From assembly GCF_004348985.1 (NCBI RefSeq), contig NZ_SMKW01000001.1, positions 124,001 through 188,000 on the forward strand: a DNA stretch of 64,000 nt, in the 5' to 3' direction. A program made the position numbers and the translations under genes. Source of the DNA: Saccharopolyspora elongata (GTDB lineage Bacteria > Actinomycetota > Actinomycetes > Mycobacteriales > Pseudonocardiaceae). Below the pieces are notes generated by a model that worked only from the letters and a program-made list of their open reading frames with translations, did not search any database and had not been told where the DNA came from. Positions 149 to 52,019 of this stretch are shown here, in pieces; position 1 is the stretch's first letter, and the number at the start of each line of letters is the position of its first letter.

Positions 149-174
149 GTGGCGATTTCGCGCGAAATCGCCAC
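149..174. repeat. Family A palindrome copy 1 (TTT-CGCGCG-AAA core)
   Basis: Perfect 26-bp palindrome with the core TTTCGCGCGAAA and arms GTGGCGA/TCGCCAC. It lies in a spacer between two convergent genes. Copy 2 follows 14 bases later. The same core occurs at 51998 and in the tandem array at 36446. Confidence 0.85.
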
Positions 175-188
175 TTCTCAGGCGTGGC

Positions 189-218
189 GAACGGCGATTT
201 CGCGCGAAATCGCCGTTC
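189..218. repeat. Family A palindrome copy 2
   Basis: Perfect 30-bp palindrome with the core TTTCGCGCGAAA and outer arms GAACGGCGA/TCGCCGTTC. The outer bases differ from copy 1 but remain fully complementary. It sits 23 bases beyond the stop codon of the convergent minus-strand gene that ends at 242. Confidence 0.85.
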
Positions 219-35121: not shown

Positions 35122-36279
35122 TCAGGGGGCCGCCGTCAGCGGTACCTCCCAGGTGACCGTGGTGCCGCTGTCCGGCGAGGACGTGACCACGCAGCGGCCG
35201 CCCGCCGCGACCGCGCGCTCTTCGAGGTTGCGCAGGCCGCGCTTGCTCACGTCGCGGGGAATTCCGCAGCCGTCGTCCACCACCTGCAGCAACAGCCCCG
35301 ATTCCGAGCGCCGCACCCGCACCAGCACGGTTTTCGCGCCGGCGTGCCGGACCACGTTGGACAGCGCTTCGCGGAGCGCGGCCCGGGCGTGGTCGGCCAC
35401 CGGCACCGGCACGTCGCTGAGGTCGCCTTCGATCTCCAACCGCGGCGGCCAGCCCAGCAGTTCCCCGGCGATCTGCACCTCGGAACGCATCGAATCGTCG
35501 AGCGCGGGCGCGTGCGCCGGGTCCTCCGGGTCCGCCGAGCGCAGCGTGCGGGCGGTGGCGCGGACCTCGGCGATCGCCTGGTCGATCTGCTCCATCGTCT
35601 CGGACAGGCGGGCGGCGTCGGCGGTGTCGAGGCGGCCGGACAGCCGCCGCTCCAGGACCTCCAGCTGCACGCCGGTGGCGTAGAGCCGCTGGACGATCAC
35701 GTCGTGCAGGTCGCGGGCGATGCGCTCCCGCTCCTGGTAGACGGCGATGCGCTGGCGCGCCGTGGAGCCCTCCGCGAGCACCAGCGCGAGCCCGGCCTGC
35801 GCGGCGAACGAGGTCAGCACGTCCACCGCGACCCGGGTGAAGGTGCTGGCGCCGCGCCGCCGGTACACGGCGAGCGCGCCGAGCCGCCGCTCGCGGGTGC
35901 CGAACGGCGCGACCGCGAACGGGCCGTAAACCCGCAGCGCAGCGGGGACGTAAGGGGCGGTGAGCGGATCGTCGATCAGGTCGTCGACGACGACCGGCAC
36001 GCCGCTGCGGGCGACCCGCGCCGCGGCCGAACGCGACGAGAGGACGGTGCCGACCGGGTCGCCGAGCGGGCCGGTCGCGGTGGGCGCGCCGTAGGCGGCC
36101 TCGACGGTCAGGCGGCCGTCGTCGGCTCGCACGGTGACGACGCCGAGGTCGGCCTCCGCGAGTTCGGCGGCGCGGCGGACAACCAGTGGGAGGACGGCCT
36201 CCGGATCTTCGGCGGACAGCGCCAGCCGGGTGATCTCGGTGGACGCCGCCAGCATGCGCTTGGCGAGGGTGGAATCCAT
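35122..36279 (-). CDS. GAF-domain sensor histidine kinase, NarL/DevS class
   Basis: A 385-residue cytoplasmic kinase. A GAF domain (about 25-170) is followed by the HisKA_3 dimerisation motif ERERIARDLHDVIVQRLYA, with the phosphorylated His at about 196, and a HATPase with NVVRHAGAKTV (N box), VVDDGCGIP and RGLRNLEERAVAAGG. Such kinases pair with NarL-type regulators, and one is 2.5 kb upstream on the other strand. The frame stays open to 36774 through a tandem repeat array, but ATG 36279 (or GTG 36288, with GGGAG 10 bases before it) gives a normal GAF N-terminus. Its position beside the cyd genes suggests redox or oxygen sensing. Confidence 0.87.
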   Translation of the reverse strand: MDSTLAKRMLAASTEITRLALSAEDPEAVLPLVVRRAAELAEADLGVVTVRADDGRLTVEAAYGAPTATGPLGDPVGTVLSSRSAAARVARSGVPVVVDDLIDDPLTAPYVPAALRVYGPFAVAPFGTRERRLGALAVYRRRGASTFTRVAVDVLTSFAAQAGLALVLAEGSTARQRIAVYQERERIARDLHDVIVQRLYATGVQLEVLERRLSGRLDTADAARLSETMEQIDQAIAEVRATARTLRSADPEDPAHAPALDDSMRSEVQIAGELLGWPPRLEIEGDLSDVPVPVADHARAALREALSNVVRHAGAKTVLVRVRRSESGLLLQVVDDGCGIPRDVSKRGLRNLEERAVAAGGRCVVTSSPDSGTTVTWEVPLTAAP

Positions 36280-36445
36280 GTCATGCACGAGGCTATAGCT
36301 CCCGCGAGTGCGAAGGCGGGTCCGGACGACGCAGGTCACAGCCCATCCGCGGCCCAGCCCCGGCCGTCGCGGCGACCCCGCAGGCCCGGAGCCGTGAGCG
36401 CACCGGCTTGGTGCGGAGGCTGTTCGGGACGTTGCTCTGCGCGCT

Positions 36446-36676
36446 GGTTTCGCGCGAAAACGGCGTTTGCCACACCTGCCGGACGACGGTTTCGCGCGAA
36501 AACGGCGCTCGCCACGCCCGCCAGACGACGGTTTCGCGCGAAAACGGCGCTCGCCACGCCCGCCAGACGACGGTTTCGCGCGAAAACGGCGCTCGCCACG
36601 CCCGCCAGACGACGGTTTCGCGCGAAAACGGCGCTCGCCACACCTGCCAGACGACGGTTTCGCGCGAAAACGGCGC
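36446..36676. repeat. Six-copy 42-bp tandem array of family A cores
   Basis: GGTTTCGCGCGAAAACGGCG recurs at 36446, 36488, 36530, 36572, 36614 and 36656, exactly 42 bases apart, with the linker CTCGCCACGCCCGCCAGACGAC nearly constant in the middle units (read CTCGCCACGCC, then CGCCAGACGAC). It occupies the 533-base spacer between the kinase start and the cydDC end. Because 42 is divisible by 3, frames stay open through it on both strands, giving spurious 14-residue repeats. I see no gene in this spacer. Confidence 0.9.
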
Positions 36677-36812
36677 CCCGTGCCGCGCGACCGCCCCGCG
36701 GCTTCGACACGTCGAAGACGGAGGTCCGCCGCTACCGAGTCCCTGCGCCATCGCAGCCAGAACAGCCTCTGCAACGCCCAACGCGCTCACGGCTCCGAAG
36801 CTCGCGCGGCGG

Positions 36813-39800
36813 TCACGGGAGGGCGCCTTCGCGCTGGGCCTCGCGGACGACCGCGATCTCGCCGGCCTCGACGCGCAGGACGATGTCCGCGTGGTCGGTC
36901 TCCGACCAGCGGTGCGTCACGTGGATGACGGTGCGGTCGCGCAGCGCGTGGCGCAGGCGGGCGAGCAGCGCCTCCGCGGTCGGCACGTCCAGGTGCGCGG
37001 TCGGCTCGTCGAGCAGCACCAGCTCCGCGTCCGCGGCCAGCAGGGCCCGGGCCAGTGCGAGGCGCTGTGCCTCGCCGCCCGACATCGCCGTGCCGCCGCT
37101 GCCGACCATCACGTCCAGCCGCTCCTCCCAGCCCGGCAGCCCCGCCACCCGGAGCGCCTCGCCGAGCTCTCGGTCGTCCGCCTCCGGCGCGGCGAGCCGC
37201 AGGTTCTCCCGGATCGTCGTCGACACCAGCTGCGGCTCCTGCGGGCACCATGCGACCTTCCGCGGCACCTGCACGTCGCCCCGCTCGGCCTCCAGGAATC
37301 CCAGCAGCAGCGCCAAGATCGTGGACTTCCCGCCGCCGGACGGCCCGACCACCGCGACGTGCGCCCCGGCGGGCACCCGCAAGTCCGCGCCCCGCAAGGC
37401 GATTCCGCCCGAACCCGGCCACCGGACATCGACGCCGGTCAGCTCGACACCGGACCGTGCCGCCGGATCAGCGGCGCCTCGCCCCGAATCGGCAGGGGCA
37501 TCACCACCGCCCGCCACCGGATCAGCGGAGACAGATCCGCTGCCCGAGCCGACCGCCAGCAGCGGCGCCAGACGCGCTTGCGCTGCGCGCAACGACTTCC
37601 ACTGCTGCGCAGCGGGCGGCAGCAACGCGACGGCTTCAGCCGCGGCGAGCGGCACCAGCCCGAGCAGCGGAGCAAGCTCCGGCGCCAACCGGCCTTCGGC
37701 CACCGCCGCCGCCCCGAACCAAGCTCCGCCGAGCACCGCGATCCCGACGAGGAGCGTGTTCACGGCCGTCGCTGCGCCCGCGCCGAAGGCGGCTCGGCGG
37801 GCACGAGCAGCGAGGCGCTCGTCGGCGGCGGCCAGTACGGCGCGACGCTCCTGGTGCGCGCCGAAGGCGATCAGTTCCGCCGAGCCGTCGAGCAGCGCGA
37901 GGACGCGAGCCGCGACGCGCCGGCGCCCTTCCGCCACGGCAGCGGTCGCGCGGCGCTCCGCGGCGAGCGCAGCAAGCGGACTCGCGACGAAGGCGACGAG
38001 CAGCGCAGCTGCGAGCACCGCACCCGCTTCGGGGAGCACCAGCGTTTGGAGCACCACCGCAGCGACCACGACGACCGCCGCGACCAGCGGCGGGAGGATC
38101 ACGCGCGGCTCCAGGTCGCGGACGGAGTCGACATCGTCGACGAGGCGCGCGACGCCCTCGCCGCGGCGGAGCCCGGCGGTGCGCACCGGCCCGAGTCGCA
38201 CGAGGGCATCCCACAGCTGCCGCCGGAGGCGGCCGGAGAGCCGGAAGGCGGCGTCATGCGTGACGAGCCGCTCCGCGTAGCGGAGCACCGAGCGCGACAG
38301 CGCGAAGGTGCGCACGCCCACGACCGCGACGGAGAGCGTGAGGATCGGCGGCTGCTGCGAAGCGCGGGCGATCAGCCAGGCCGACGTCGCGGTCAGCGCG
38401 AGGCCGGAGAGCAGCGAGAGCGCGCCGAGGCCGACGCCGAGGAGCGTTCGCGGCGTGATCAGGTCGCGGATGCGACCGGTCGCCGCCGGCAGGTCGGGCG
38501 GGGCGGCCGGAAGGGCCGCGGTGGCCGCTTCGGGTTCGGCTTCGGCCGCCTCCGGGCGGTGGCTGGCGAGCACGACCGTCGCGCCCGCTTCGGCGGCGCG
38601 GCGGACTGCCTCGTTGACCTGGTGGGCCGTCGCTGCGTCCAGGTGCGCGGTCGGCTCGTCGAGCAGCAGGATCTTCGCGTCGCCGCGCAGCCTCAGCAGG
38701 GCGCGTGCCACCGCGACCCGTTGACGCTCCCCTGTGGACAGTTCGTCGATGCGGCGGTCGCGGAGGTGGGCGGCGGCCGCGGCGGCGAGCGCTTCGCCGA
38801 CGTGCGCCGTCAGGTCGGGTTGGTCGGCGGTGGCGACGGTGAGCTCATCGGCGACGGTGCCGCCGGTGAACGTCGGGCGCTGCGGCACCCACGCGATGCG
38901 GCGACGCCACTCGGCCGGGTCCAGCTCGGCGATGTCCACGCCGTCGCAGGTGATCGTGCCGCTTTCCAGAGCGGCGAAGCCGAGCAGCACCGACATCGTC
39001 GTCGACTTGCCGCTGCCGCTCGGCCCGATCCCGTCGAAGCCCTCCAGCCGCACGATCTCGCCGGGCCGCGCCACGAAACTCAGGCCGTCCGGCGCGAACC
39101 CGTCCCGCCGCCGCACCCGCAACCCGGCCACCTGCACCTTCGCCGGCCCGTCGGAGCGAACGGACCGTTCACGCCGATAGGCGAGGTCAACGGTCCGTTC
39201 GCTCGAACCCAACCCACTCGACGCGAACGGGCCGCGCGAGGTGAACGGACCGTTCGCCTCGTCTAGCGATGCGGAGGTGGCGTTCGCCTCGCCGCGCGAA
39301 GCGCCGCCGCTCACGATCTCGTCGACCCGGCGGACGGCTTCGACGCCGTCTTCGCTGGCGTGGTGCGCCGCTCCGGCCGCGCGCAGCGGCAGGTAGCACT
39401 CCGGCGCGAGGATCAGCACCAACAGGCCCGTCGCCAGGTCGAGGTCGCCGGAGACCAGCCGCAGGCCGATGCCGACCGCCACCATCGCCACCGACAGCGA
39501 CGACAACAGCTCCAGGACCAGCGCTGAGAGGAAGGCGATGCGCAGCGTCGCGATCGTGGTGCGGCGGTGCGAGTCGCTGACGCGGCGGACGACCTCGCCC
39601 TGCGCTCGCGCCCGCCCGAACGCCGTCAGCACCGGCAGCGCCCGGATCAGCTCCAGCAGTTGCCCGGACAGCCGCTGCACCGCATCGGCGGCGCGCGAGG
39701 TGCGCTGCTCGGTGTACTTGCCGACGAGCCACGCGAACAGCGGGATCAGCGGCACGGTGATCACGATGACCAGCGCGGAAACCCAGTCGGAGAACAGGAT

Positions 39801-40253
39801 CCAGGCCCCCACCAGCGGCGGCACCACCGCCGCGGTCACCAGCGCGGGCAGGTACTTGGTGAAGTACGCGTCGAGCGCGTCGAGGCCCTTGGTGGCGAGC
39901 GCGGTCAGCTCGGCCGGGCCGCGCCGGTGGATCCACTCCGGGCCCCGCCGCAGCGCGGAATCCAGCAGCAGGCCGCGCAGCTCCTCCTTCGCGCCCGCCG
40001 CCGCCCGGGCGGACACCGACTCGGTCGCCCAGCCCAGCGCGGCCCGCGCCACCACCGCACCGGCGAGCACCACGAGGTGGTCGCCGATCTCCTCCGGCGA
40101 GGCGGCGCTGGTCACCACGGCCGCGAGCGCGCTGCCCAACGCCCAGGCCTGCACGATCAGCGCGGCCGCGTTGCCGACGGAGAGCAGCCCGGCCACGACG
40201 AGCGCGCGCCGGGCCGACCCCGAAAGCCGAGGCAGAGCTCCCAGCGGACCCAT
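36813..40253 (-). CDS. cydDC: Fused CydD-CydC thiol/heme ABC exporter
   Basis: A 1146-residue protein equal to CydD plus CydC joined. Each half has six membrane segments and an ATPase. The first Walker A is GPSGSGKST (about 408-416) with signature LSTGERQRVAVARALL (about 505-520); the second is GPSGGGKST (about 965-973) with MSGGEAQRLALARALL (about 1055-1070). The exporter moves cysteine/glutathione or heme to the periplasm and is needed to assemble cytochrome bd, whose genes lie upstream on the same strand. The linker at about residues 330-366 is encoded by palindromic repeats and looks inserted. The fused form occurs in several actinobacteria. Confidence 0.93.
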   Translation of the reverse strand: MGPLGALPRLSGSARRALVVAGLLSVGNAAALIVQAWALGSALAAVVTSAASPEEIGDHLVVLAGAVVARAALGWATESVSARAAAGAKEELRGLLLDSALRRGPEWIHRRGPAELTALATKGLDALDAYFTKYLPALVTAAVVPPLVGAWILFSDWVSALVIVITVPLIPLFAWLVGKYTEQRTSRAADAVQRLSGQLLELIRALPVLTAFGRARAQGEVVRRVSDSHRRTTIATLRIAFLSALVLELLSSLSVAMVAVGIGLRLVSGDLDLATGLLVLILAPECYLPLRAAGAAHHASEDGVEAVRRVDEIVSGGASRGEANATSASLDEANGPFTSRGPFASSGLGSSERTVDLAYRRERSVRSDGPAKVQVAGLRVRRRDGFAPDGLSFVARPGEIVRLEGFDGIGPSGSGKSTTMSVLLGFAALESGTITCDGVDIAELDPAEWRRRIAWVPQRPTFTGGTVADELTVATADQPDLTAHVGEALAAAAAAHLRDRRIDELSTGERQRVAVARALLRLRGDAKILLLDEPTAHLDAATAHQVNEAVRRAAEAGATVVLASHRPEAAEAEPEAATAALPAAPPDLPAATGRIRDLITPRTLLGVGLGALSLLSGLALTATSAWLIARASQQPPILTLSVAVVGVRTFALSRSVLRYAERLVTHDAAFRLSGRLRRQLWDALVRLGPVRTAGLRRGEGVARLVDDVDSVRDLEPRVILPPLVAAVVVVAAVVLQTLVLPEAGAVLAAALLVAFVASPLAALAAERRATAAVAEGRRRVAARVLALLDGSAELIAFGAHQERRAVLAAADERLAARARRAAFGAGAATAVNTLLVGIAVLGGAWFGAAAVAEGRLAPELAPLLGLVPLAAAEAVALLPPAAQQWKSLRAAQARLAPLLAVGSGSGSVSADPVAGGGDAPADSGRGAADPAARSGVELTGVDVRWPGSGGIALRGADLRVPAGAHVAVVGPSGGGKSTILALLLGFLEAERGDVQVPRKVAWCPQEPQLVSTTIRENLRLAAPEADDRELGEALRVAGLPGWEERLDVMVGSGGTAMSGGEAQRLALARALLAADAELVLLDEPTAHLDVPTAEALLARLRHALRDRTVIHVTHRWSETDHADIVLRVEAGEIAVVREAQREGALP
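39155..39256. repeat. Family F GAACGGNCCGTTC palindromes inside cydDC
   Basis: GCGAACGGACCGTTCACGC (39155-39173), CAACGGTCCGTTCG (39188-39201), CGAACGGGCCGCGCG (39223-39237, half-decayed) and GTGAACGGACCGTTCGC (39241-39257). They encode the Ser/Gly/Arg-rich linker between the first transmembrane and ATPase domains, so a repeat cluster has been accommodated in frame. Confidence 0.7.
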
Positions 40254-51834: not shown

Positions 51835-51902
51835 CCAATTTTAGGCAAAATTGGAATTTCCACCGTCACCGCAGCGGGGTTCCCAATTTTAGGCAAAATC
51901 GG
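51835..51902. repeat. Family C palindromes, two copies
   Basis: CCAATTTTAGGCAAAATTGG (51835-51854, perfect 8-bp arms) and CCAATTTTAGGCAAAATCGG (51883-51902), in the 487-base spacer downstream of iclR. Decayed pieces follow near 51929 and 52080 (TTGGGCAAGATCGG). A family A palindrome is in the same spacer. Confidence 0.82.
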
Positions 51903-51997: not shown

Positions 51998-52019
51998 GGC
52001 GGTTTCGCGCGAAACCGCC
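51998..52019. repeat. Family A palindrome copy 3
   Basis: Perfect 22-bp palindrome GGCGGTTTCGC/GCGAAACCGCC. Compared with copies 1 and 2 the base pair outside TTT/AAA has changed from A-T to G-C on both sides, so pairing is kept. It lies 94 bases beyond the iclR stop. Confidence 0.85.

Follow-up and report, generated by a model that had tools for sequence, protein, structure and literature searches.

A tandem array of six palindromic cores between cydDC and a sensor kinase gene of Saccharopolyspora elongata probably arose by local tandem amplification of one member of a family of small palindromic repeats that occupy intergenic DNA genome-wide. The family is dispersed through the genome, is built mainly of doublets with a frozen core and variable linkers, and lies between genes and away from divergent gaps. 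Its occupancy differs in a sister species, and the tandem units of the array are near-identical. The array was studied within a 64-kb stretch of DNA (64,000 nucleotides; hereafter the window), in which the following features were located.

36446..36676, no strand: tandem array of six palindromic cores TTTCGCGCGAAA with a 42-bp period (TRF and pattern scan)
36443..36464, no strand: array motif 1, differing from the extended motif once, on the outer (left) flank (flank listing)
36485-36506, 36527-36548, 36569-36590, 36611-36632 and 36653-36674, no strand: array motifs 2 to 6, fitting GNCGN-TTTCGCGCGAAA-NCGNC (flank listing)
36387..36428, plus strand: left arm of an imperfect inverted repeat around the array, distinct from the TIR-like word at other copies (inverted-repeat search)
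36757..36797, minus strand: right arm of the same imperfect inverted repeat (inverted-repeat search)
36813..40196, minus strand: predicted cydDC fusion, ABC transporter, with its stop side toward the array (start at 40196 from our home-made gene caller; the ORF list gives 36813-40253)
35122..36279, minus strand: predicted GAF-HisKA_3-HATPase sensor kinase with an ATG start at 36279 (domains and gene calls)
36286..36340, minus strand: conserved block ahead of the kinase, candidate promoter or short N-terminal extension (alignment by eye; TGTGACCTGCGTCGTC at 36325-36340 and GGGAGCTATAGCCTCGTG at 36286-36303)
151..214, no strand: family member, core pair (156, 198) 42 bp apart, perfect palindromes with convergent genes on either side (scan of the window)
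51998..52019, no strand: family member, single core at 52003 (scan of the window)

TRF described the array as 5.5 copies of period 42 with 96% matches and 0% indels, and its score of 413 was the highest of the 14 TRF rows in the window (the runner-up scored 95). Exact copies of the 12-mer TTTCGCGCGAAA start at 36448, 36490, 36532, 36574, 36616 and 36658, so the six tandem units of exact 42-bp period that a sequence-only reading of this DNA had described are confirmed by two routes. With up to one mismatch allowed, the window holds nine copies of the 12-mer; 100 shuffled versions averaged 0.16 copies and never exceeded 1. Gene and domain calls also bear out the location given by that reading, between the cydDC stop and the kinase gene with both genes on the minus strand; the name cydDC was assigned on the predicted domains of the gene and on its neighbours, which are annotated as cytochrome bd subunits I and II. 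The linker between the cores had been called constant, which holds for linkers 2, 3 and 4, identical to each other, but not for linkers 1 and 5, which deviate. This pattern fits a history in which the inner units were duplicated last and, together with a core-free locus in the sister species, it supports the proposed amplification of a repeat unit. The count of six units may have been collapsed or misjudged, since the assembly is fragmented into 277 contigs.

The exact core is present 341 times in the whole genome, while its reversed control is absent. Detailed analyses were carried out on a sample of 1,547,351 bp (~15% of the genome) from contigs chosen because they were known to hold cores; the 100 cores of this sample represent about twice the genome-average density, though context tests should be less affected. 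These 100 exact cores fall into 51 clusters (12 single, 34 double, 3 triple, one of five and one of six), the largest of which is the array at 36446-36676 and the commonest form of which is the doublet (34/51). Core spacings below 300 bp are 40 bp (1), 41 bp (15), 42 bp (32) and 103 bp (1). Around the 12-mer we derived an extended motif, GNCGN-TTTCGCGCGAAA-NCGNC, in which 18 positions are near-frozen among sites that had been picked for the exact 12-mer, and which is joined to its neighbour by variable linkers. Perfect matches to the 18 positions number 90 in the sample, with a further 8, 6 and 5 sites at one, two and three mismatches, compared with 0, 0, 0 and 1 for the reversed motif at zero to three mismatches; beyond three mismatches the counts lie close to background (23 and 202 vs 19 and 148 for the reversed motif). 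Linkers retain some resemblance, with a mean best identity of 0.556 vs 0.363 for shuffled sequence (same-length comparisons, 39 clusters). None of the 12 single cores has a partner within three mismatches, and for three of them the best neighbour (7/18 mismatches) lies at exactly 41 or 42 bp, which suggests that some single cores may be pairs with one half decayed.

Outside the 12-mer, positions 2, 3 and 5 are almost fixed and positions 1 and 4 are free across the 100 cores. Complementary pairs are above expectation at both free positions (53 vs 29.7 at position 1 and 55 vs 35.7 at position 4, of 100), yet mismatches at position 1 are frequent: G.A in 27 of 100 cores and T.C, the same mismatch on the opposite strand, in 8 more. 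The array core is mismatched at this position (G.A on the plus strand; U.C on the transcribed strand). When one long REPIN-type hairpin was compared with two separate hairpins among 40 pairs, position 1 covaried under every pairing scheme tested and position 4 only within core 1, which favours neither form. As to a replication-direction bias, asymmetric cores on the window's own contig (C110) by eye nearly all point in the same direction, and those on other contigs are mixed.

Other palindromes are present in the same DNA. A second family, resembling ATTTTGCCTAAAAT and including some one-mismatch copies, occurs in the window at 51838/51886, 55993/56040, 25320/25425 and 57450, forms pairs 47-48 bp apart in two places, and has 35 exact copies in the 1.55 Mb sample. 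A third palindromic word, GAACGGNCCGTTC, has 39 copies in the sample, with window copies at 39158 and 39243 within cydDC; similar words occupy the cydDC-kinase spacer of S. shandongensis (L031). Four canonical parS sites lie beside parB on the window's own contig (G000:C110:296214-299136), about 110-170 kb away, which places the window probably near the replication origin.

A search with CydDC returned 21 loci, nine of them titled Saccharopolyspora, with S. shandongensis the nearest (93%). Exact cores are lacking at 15 of the 16 loci examined (L031-L046), one of which (L036) ends short of the spacer. S. soli (L039) has two exact cores, both before cydDC and outside the cydDC-kinase spacer. Inspected by eye, the spacer itself contains a pair of variant palindromes 42 bp apart in S. 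soli, one single-mismatch core in S. spinosa (L032), and no core but a different palindrome word in S. shandongensis. Contig C110 is collinear with an S. shandongensis contig at ~95% identity. Over the collinear stretch, three of the eight S. elongata clusters are common to both species by position and five, including the array and one at C110:176003, are not, and S. shandongensis has no cluster of its own. The shared cluster at 102066 has one core in S. shandongensis vs two in S. elongata, and the shared pair at 240279 has changed in its linker and at position 1 with its fixed positions unchanged. In the four of these five unshared spacers that were inspected (124156, 213631, 221019 and the array), the entire spacer differs between the species, and neither a clean empty site nor a target-site duplication was seen. 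At G081:C58:60476-60615, the S. shandongensis cydDC gene has roughly 120-126 additional bases relative to the window, partly repeating neighbouring sequence. An inverted duplication in a relative (L155) was set aside as an apparent assembly problem.

Across 22 Saccharopolyspora genomes the core count ranges from 0 to 341, with at least one core in 16, and follows genome size (rho 0.87, using rounded sizes). In a scan of 220 Pseudonocardiaceae genomes the 12-mer was found in 38, and 17 genomes, from five genera, have at least 10 copies. In a scan of 296 genomes from the phylum, for which no other member of Pseudonocardiaceae was drawn, the S. elongata genome alone had more than three cores. The sequence around the core varies between lineages. 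One genome of another genus (G026) has long-stem copies of the form GGTTACCCGG-core-CCGGGTAACC in pairs 26 bp apart, and one Saccharopolyspora (G017) has two TCGAA-core-TTCGA-like pairs 38 bp apart. Pairs in another genus are 42-43 bp apart with an unrelated linker, and other members have pairs at 52-73 bp.

Many clusters have an inward-facing word resembling GTCGTTTCAGAATGG, whose start lies mostly 46-60 bp outside the motif. At up to four mismatches, 20 of 59 clusters have such a TIR-like end to the left and 15 have one to the right (2 and 0 for the opposite-orientation control); at up to five mismatches, 14 have one on both sides (single-side control 3 and 1 at that threshold). Eight framed elements with cores inside are 170-179 or 127-128 bp long. 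The exact word GTCGTTTCAGAATGG occurs six times in the genome, and 14 of 47 TIR-like words (up to three mismatches; our sample plus the S. shandongensis contig) lie away from any core. The flanks of the array have no GTCGTTTCAGAATGG-like ends. A candidate autonomous element with the same ends was rejected, as the TIR-like pairs found enclose no called gene, apart from one pair that spans two separate elements. A core-free element of 223 bp with similar inverted ends was seen at G000:C22:140449-140672.

Gene context was taken from our home-made gene caller for the 59 clusters found at up to three mismatches. These comprise 31 in tandem gaps, 23 in convergent gaps, 2 in divergent gaps, 2 within genes and 1 at an edge, so that 56 of 59 lie between called genes; all exact cores in the sample are outside called genes, and the two intragenic sites are weak sites with inexact cores, one of them a canonical parS. 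Relative to all gaps of at least 60 bp in the sample (450 tandem, 161 convergent and 233 divergent), clusters are depleted in divergent gaps (Fisher p 1.1e-5) and enriched in convergent gaps (p 2.5e-4). In tandem gaps, 27 of 31 clusters are closer to the upstream stop (median 48 vs 202 bp). Leaving out the 50 or 100 bp nearest to starts preserves this bias (p 8e-5 and 6e-4); leaving out 150-200 bp weakens it to p ~0.07, with fewer clusters remaining (21 and 16). Convergent gaps show no preference for stop codons (KS p 0.71). Promoter avoidance may therefore be enough to explain the placement, given a reach of 150-200 bp, and a role at 3' ends is possible, though the placement does not need one.

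The sequence-only reading had offered an insulating terminator array as one explanation. A function as a transcription terminator or insulator separating cydDC and the kinase would suit the family's avoidance of divergent gaps and its nearness to upstream stops in tandem gaps, which stays at p <0.001 under the shorter start exclusions, and family members with perfect pairing give stable predicted folds (-12.7 and -14.7 kcal/mol, z -2.7 and -3.1). We nevertheless consider this function unlikely for the array, whose cores carry the position-1 mismatch and are no more stable when folded than shuffled sequence (-6.0 kcal/mol with z -0.02, z 0.40 for the other strand and z -0.28 for two units together); the same is true of the whole transcribed strand from 36812 to 36430 (z +1.01). 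The region 36200-36900 has no terminator-like site of the kind formed by a GC-rich hairpin and a U-tract. On this and the folding results a canonical terminator was rejected; the window has no Rfam match at gathering thresholds. The indifference to stops in convergent gaps and the weakening of the tandem bias under the longer exclusions also count against a terminator. The same reading had left room for a repeat-bearing kinase N-terminus, noting correctly that the kinase frame stays open through the array: the nearest in-frame stop is 510 nt above the kinase ATG, with a start codon 495 nt upstream, and an extended protein would carry 14-residue repeats. That the array is coding is nonetheless extremely improbable. 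Seven related species (L031, L032, L033, L035, L038, L039 and L040; partly by eye) keep a MDSTLAKRMLAAST-type kinase start and the adjoining block, and have an in-frame stop 78-294 nt upstream of that start, so the open frame across the array follows incidentally from its period being a multiple of three; a further locus, L034, had no kinase start match and is outside this comparison. The relatives' spacers lack the array, the array lies upstream of the conserved pre-kinase block, and in the window the stretch from 60 to 495 nt above the kinase ATG holds no start codon. The coding explanation was rejected on the relatives' in-frame stops close above the conserved start. The two pre-kinase blocks within 36286-36340 (minus strand) are near-identical and constantly spaced in the seven related species, and this kinase-proximal region is retained where the array is missing. 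It would be a promoter or else encode a conserved N-terminal extension of 20 residues starting at a GTG 60 nt upstream.

Two further explanations concern the protein that acts on the cores, and were examined through the families PF01797 and PF17762. The doublets, tandem arrays and unidirectional or convergent placement match REP/REPIN descriptions in the available text of PMC3116915 and PMC3733652, and would be expected of a genuine REP/REPIN family moved by a RAYT (Y1 tyrosine transposase). The raw Y1 count also correlates with core count across the genus (rho 0.64, p 0.0013), but the correlation is lost once genome size is removed (partial rank r 0.10, p 0.67), and RAYT/Y1 was rejected as the driver. 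A Y1 match is missing from four of the 11 Saccharopolyspora that have 25 or more cores, the S. elongata genome has four partial matches, two of them with in-frame stops, and no exact core was found in the 23 Y1 loci examined (of 51 matches in 81 genomes). A GTAG/CTAC tag is near only 1 of 100 cores, and CGTC stands at one end of 21, at both ends of 2 and at neither end of 77. Mobilisation by a RAYT is accordingly highly doubtful. Somewhat better placed, though still rather unlikely, is the proposal that the cores are sites of a sequence-specific double-strand DNA-binding protein (nucleoid-associated or Noc/ParB-like), for which the array would be a strong putative binding cluster; the sequence-only reading had likewise named a protein-binding array among its options. 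Base identity is near-fixed at positions 2, 3 and 5 and free at 1 and 4, the frequent G.A and T.C mismatches at position 1 indicate that strict pairing is not maintained, only the 12-mer is constant across genera with unlike stems and spacings, and the core, RTTTC-GCGC-GAAAY, has the form of a parS/Noc site. However, HTH_ParB has a single match in the S. elongata genome, as in 21 of the 22 Saccharopolyspora (G010 has none), whatever the core count, and a canonical parS is present in 4 copies within 3 kb beside parB. With no second ParB-HTH gene and a normal parS, a ParB/Noc-like partner was rejected. The confinement of exact cores in the sample to sequence outside called genes also counts against a binding protein, and spacings of 26, 38, 41-43 and 52-73 bp across lineages rule out a single helical phasing.

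We therefore favour local amplification of a dispersed repeat. The basic unit would be the doublet, two 22-bp palindromes GNCGN-TTTCGCGCGAAA-NCGNC placed 41 or 42 bp apart, in some cases framed by GTCGTTTCAGAATGG-like inverted ends into a MITE-like element of ~170-179 bp. We infer that the doublet is mobile but non-autonomous and is spread, as REPINs or BIMEs are, by a core-recognising protein; slippage or unequal crossing-over would then have raised the 42-bp unit to six copies between cydDC and the kinase. The Y1 and HTH_ParB tests yielded no mobilising gene for the family. A hidden mobiliser flanked by clusters was also rejected: judged by eye, the genes lying between close clusters resemble those for enzymes, membrane proteins and regulators, and none was recognised as a transposase. 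The frozen core could also reflect selection on a binding site. The array most likely does nothing specific for cydDC or the kinase, and may be tolerated because it has a stop codon on one side and, on the other, a promoter-like block that is still intact. More tentatively, the 12-bp palindrome might be the recognition site of an undescribed Pseudonocardiaceae protein, either a doublet-mobilising enzyme or a chromosome-wide DNA-binding protein. The palindrome would then have been recruited into unrelated stems and linkers in several genera, and within the sampled part of the genome its largest site would be the six-unit array.

parS is GTTTCACGTGAAAC, and parS and the Noc site share the form RTTTC-NNNN-GAAAY, which the Saccharopolyspora core has in common with them. 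The available text of PMC7383237 gives positions 1 and 6 as the only ones at which parS and the Noc site differ from each other. The Saccharopolyspora core departs from both in its GCGC centre, in its intergenic and paired sites, and in having no second ParB-HTH gene to go with it. Like bacterial MITEs, some members have inverted TIR-like ends on both sides (the 14 of 59 clusters, with elements of 170-179 or 127-128 bp); unlike them, the array under study has no TIR-like ends, the four inspected unshared spacers showed no target-site duplication, and no parent transposase came to light. CGTC-tagged REPs are similar in their stem of 8-9 bp, loop of 4-5 bp, dimers and unidirectional or convergent placement, and have no dedicated transposase known according to the available text of PMC3733652, where they are reported in five phyla that do not include Actinobacteria. 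They differ in that CGTC is at an end of only 23 of 100 Saccharopolyspora cores, and in their placement within <20 bp of convergent stops (PMC3733652, same text), for which the Saccharopolyspora family has no such preference. The closest parallel is with the REPINs and REP doublets of Pseudomonas and E. coli, which in the available text of PMC3116915 are likewise palindromic, intergenic and mainly fixed-spacing doublets, with conserved ends, a variable spacer and occasional evenly spaced tandem arrays. By this analogy the Saccharopolyspora family probably works like REP/REPIN, though we do not file it as a member given the scarcity of the GTAG/CTAC and CGTC tags and the outcome of the RAYT tests. 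Searches of an open-access library brought up no paper that, judging by title or abstract opening, describes the family, and the 12-mer TTTCGCGCGAAA appeared there only in a mammalian E2F paper. REP-like doublets are tied to RAYT transposases or to no known enzyme and come mostly from Proteobacteria, as far as the available texts of PMC3733652 and PMC3116915 cover them. Set beside these, an abundant actinomycete doublet family with a frozen core, no RAYT link and differing occupancy in sister species offers a clean system for finding the missing enzyme or binding protein, and the length of its array could double as a strain marker.
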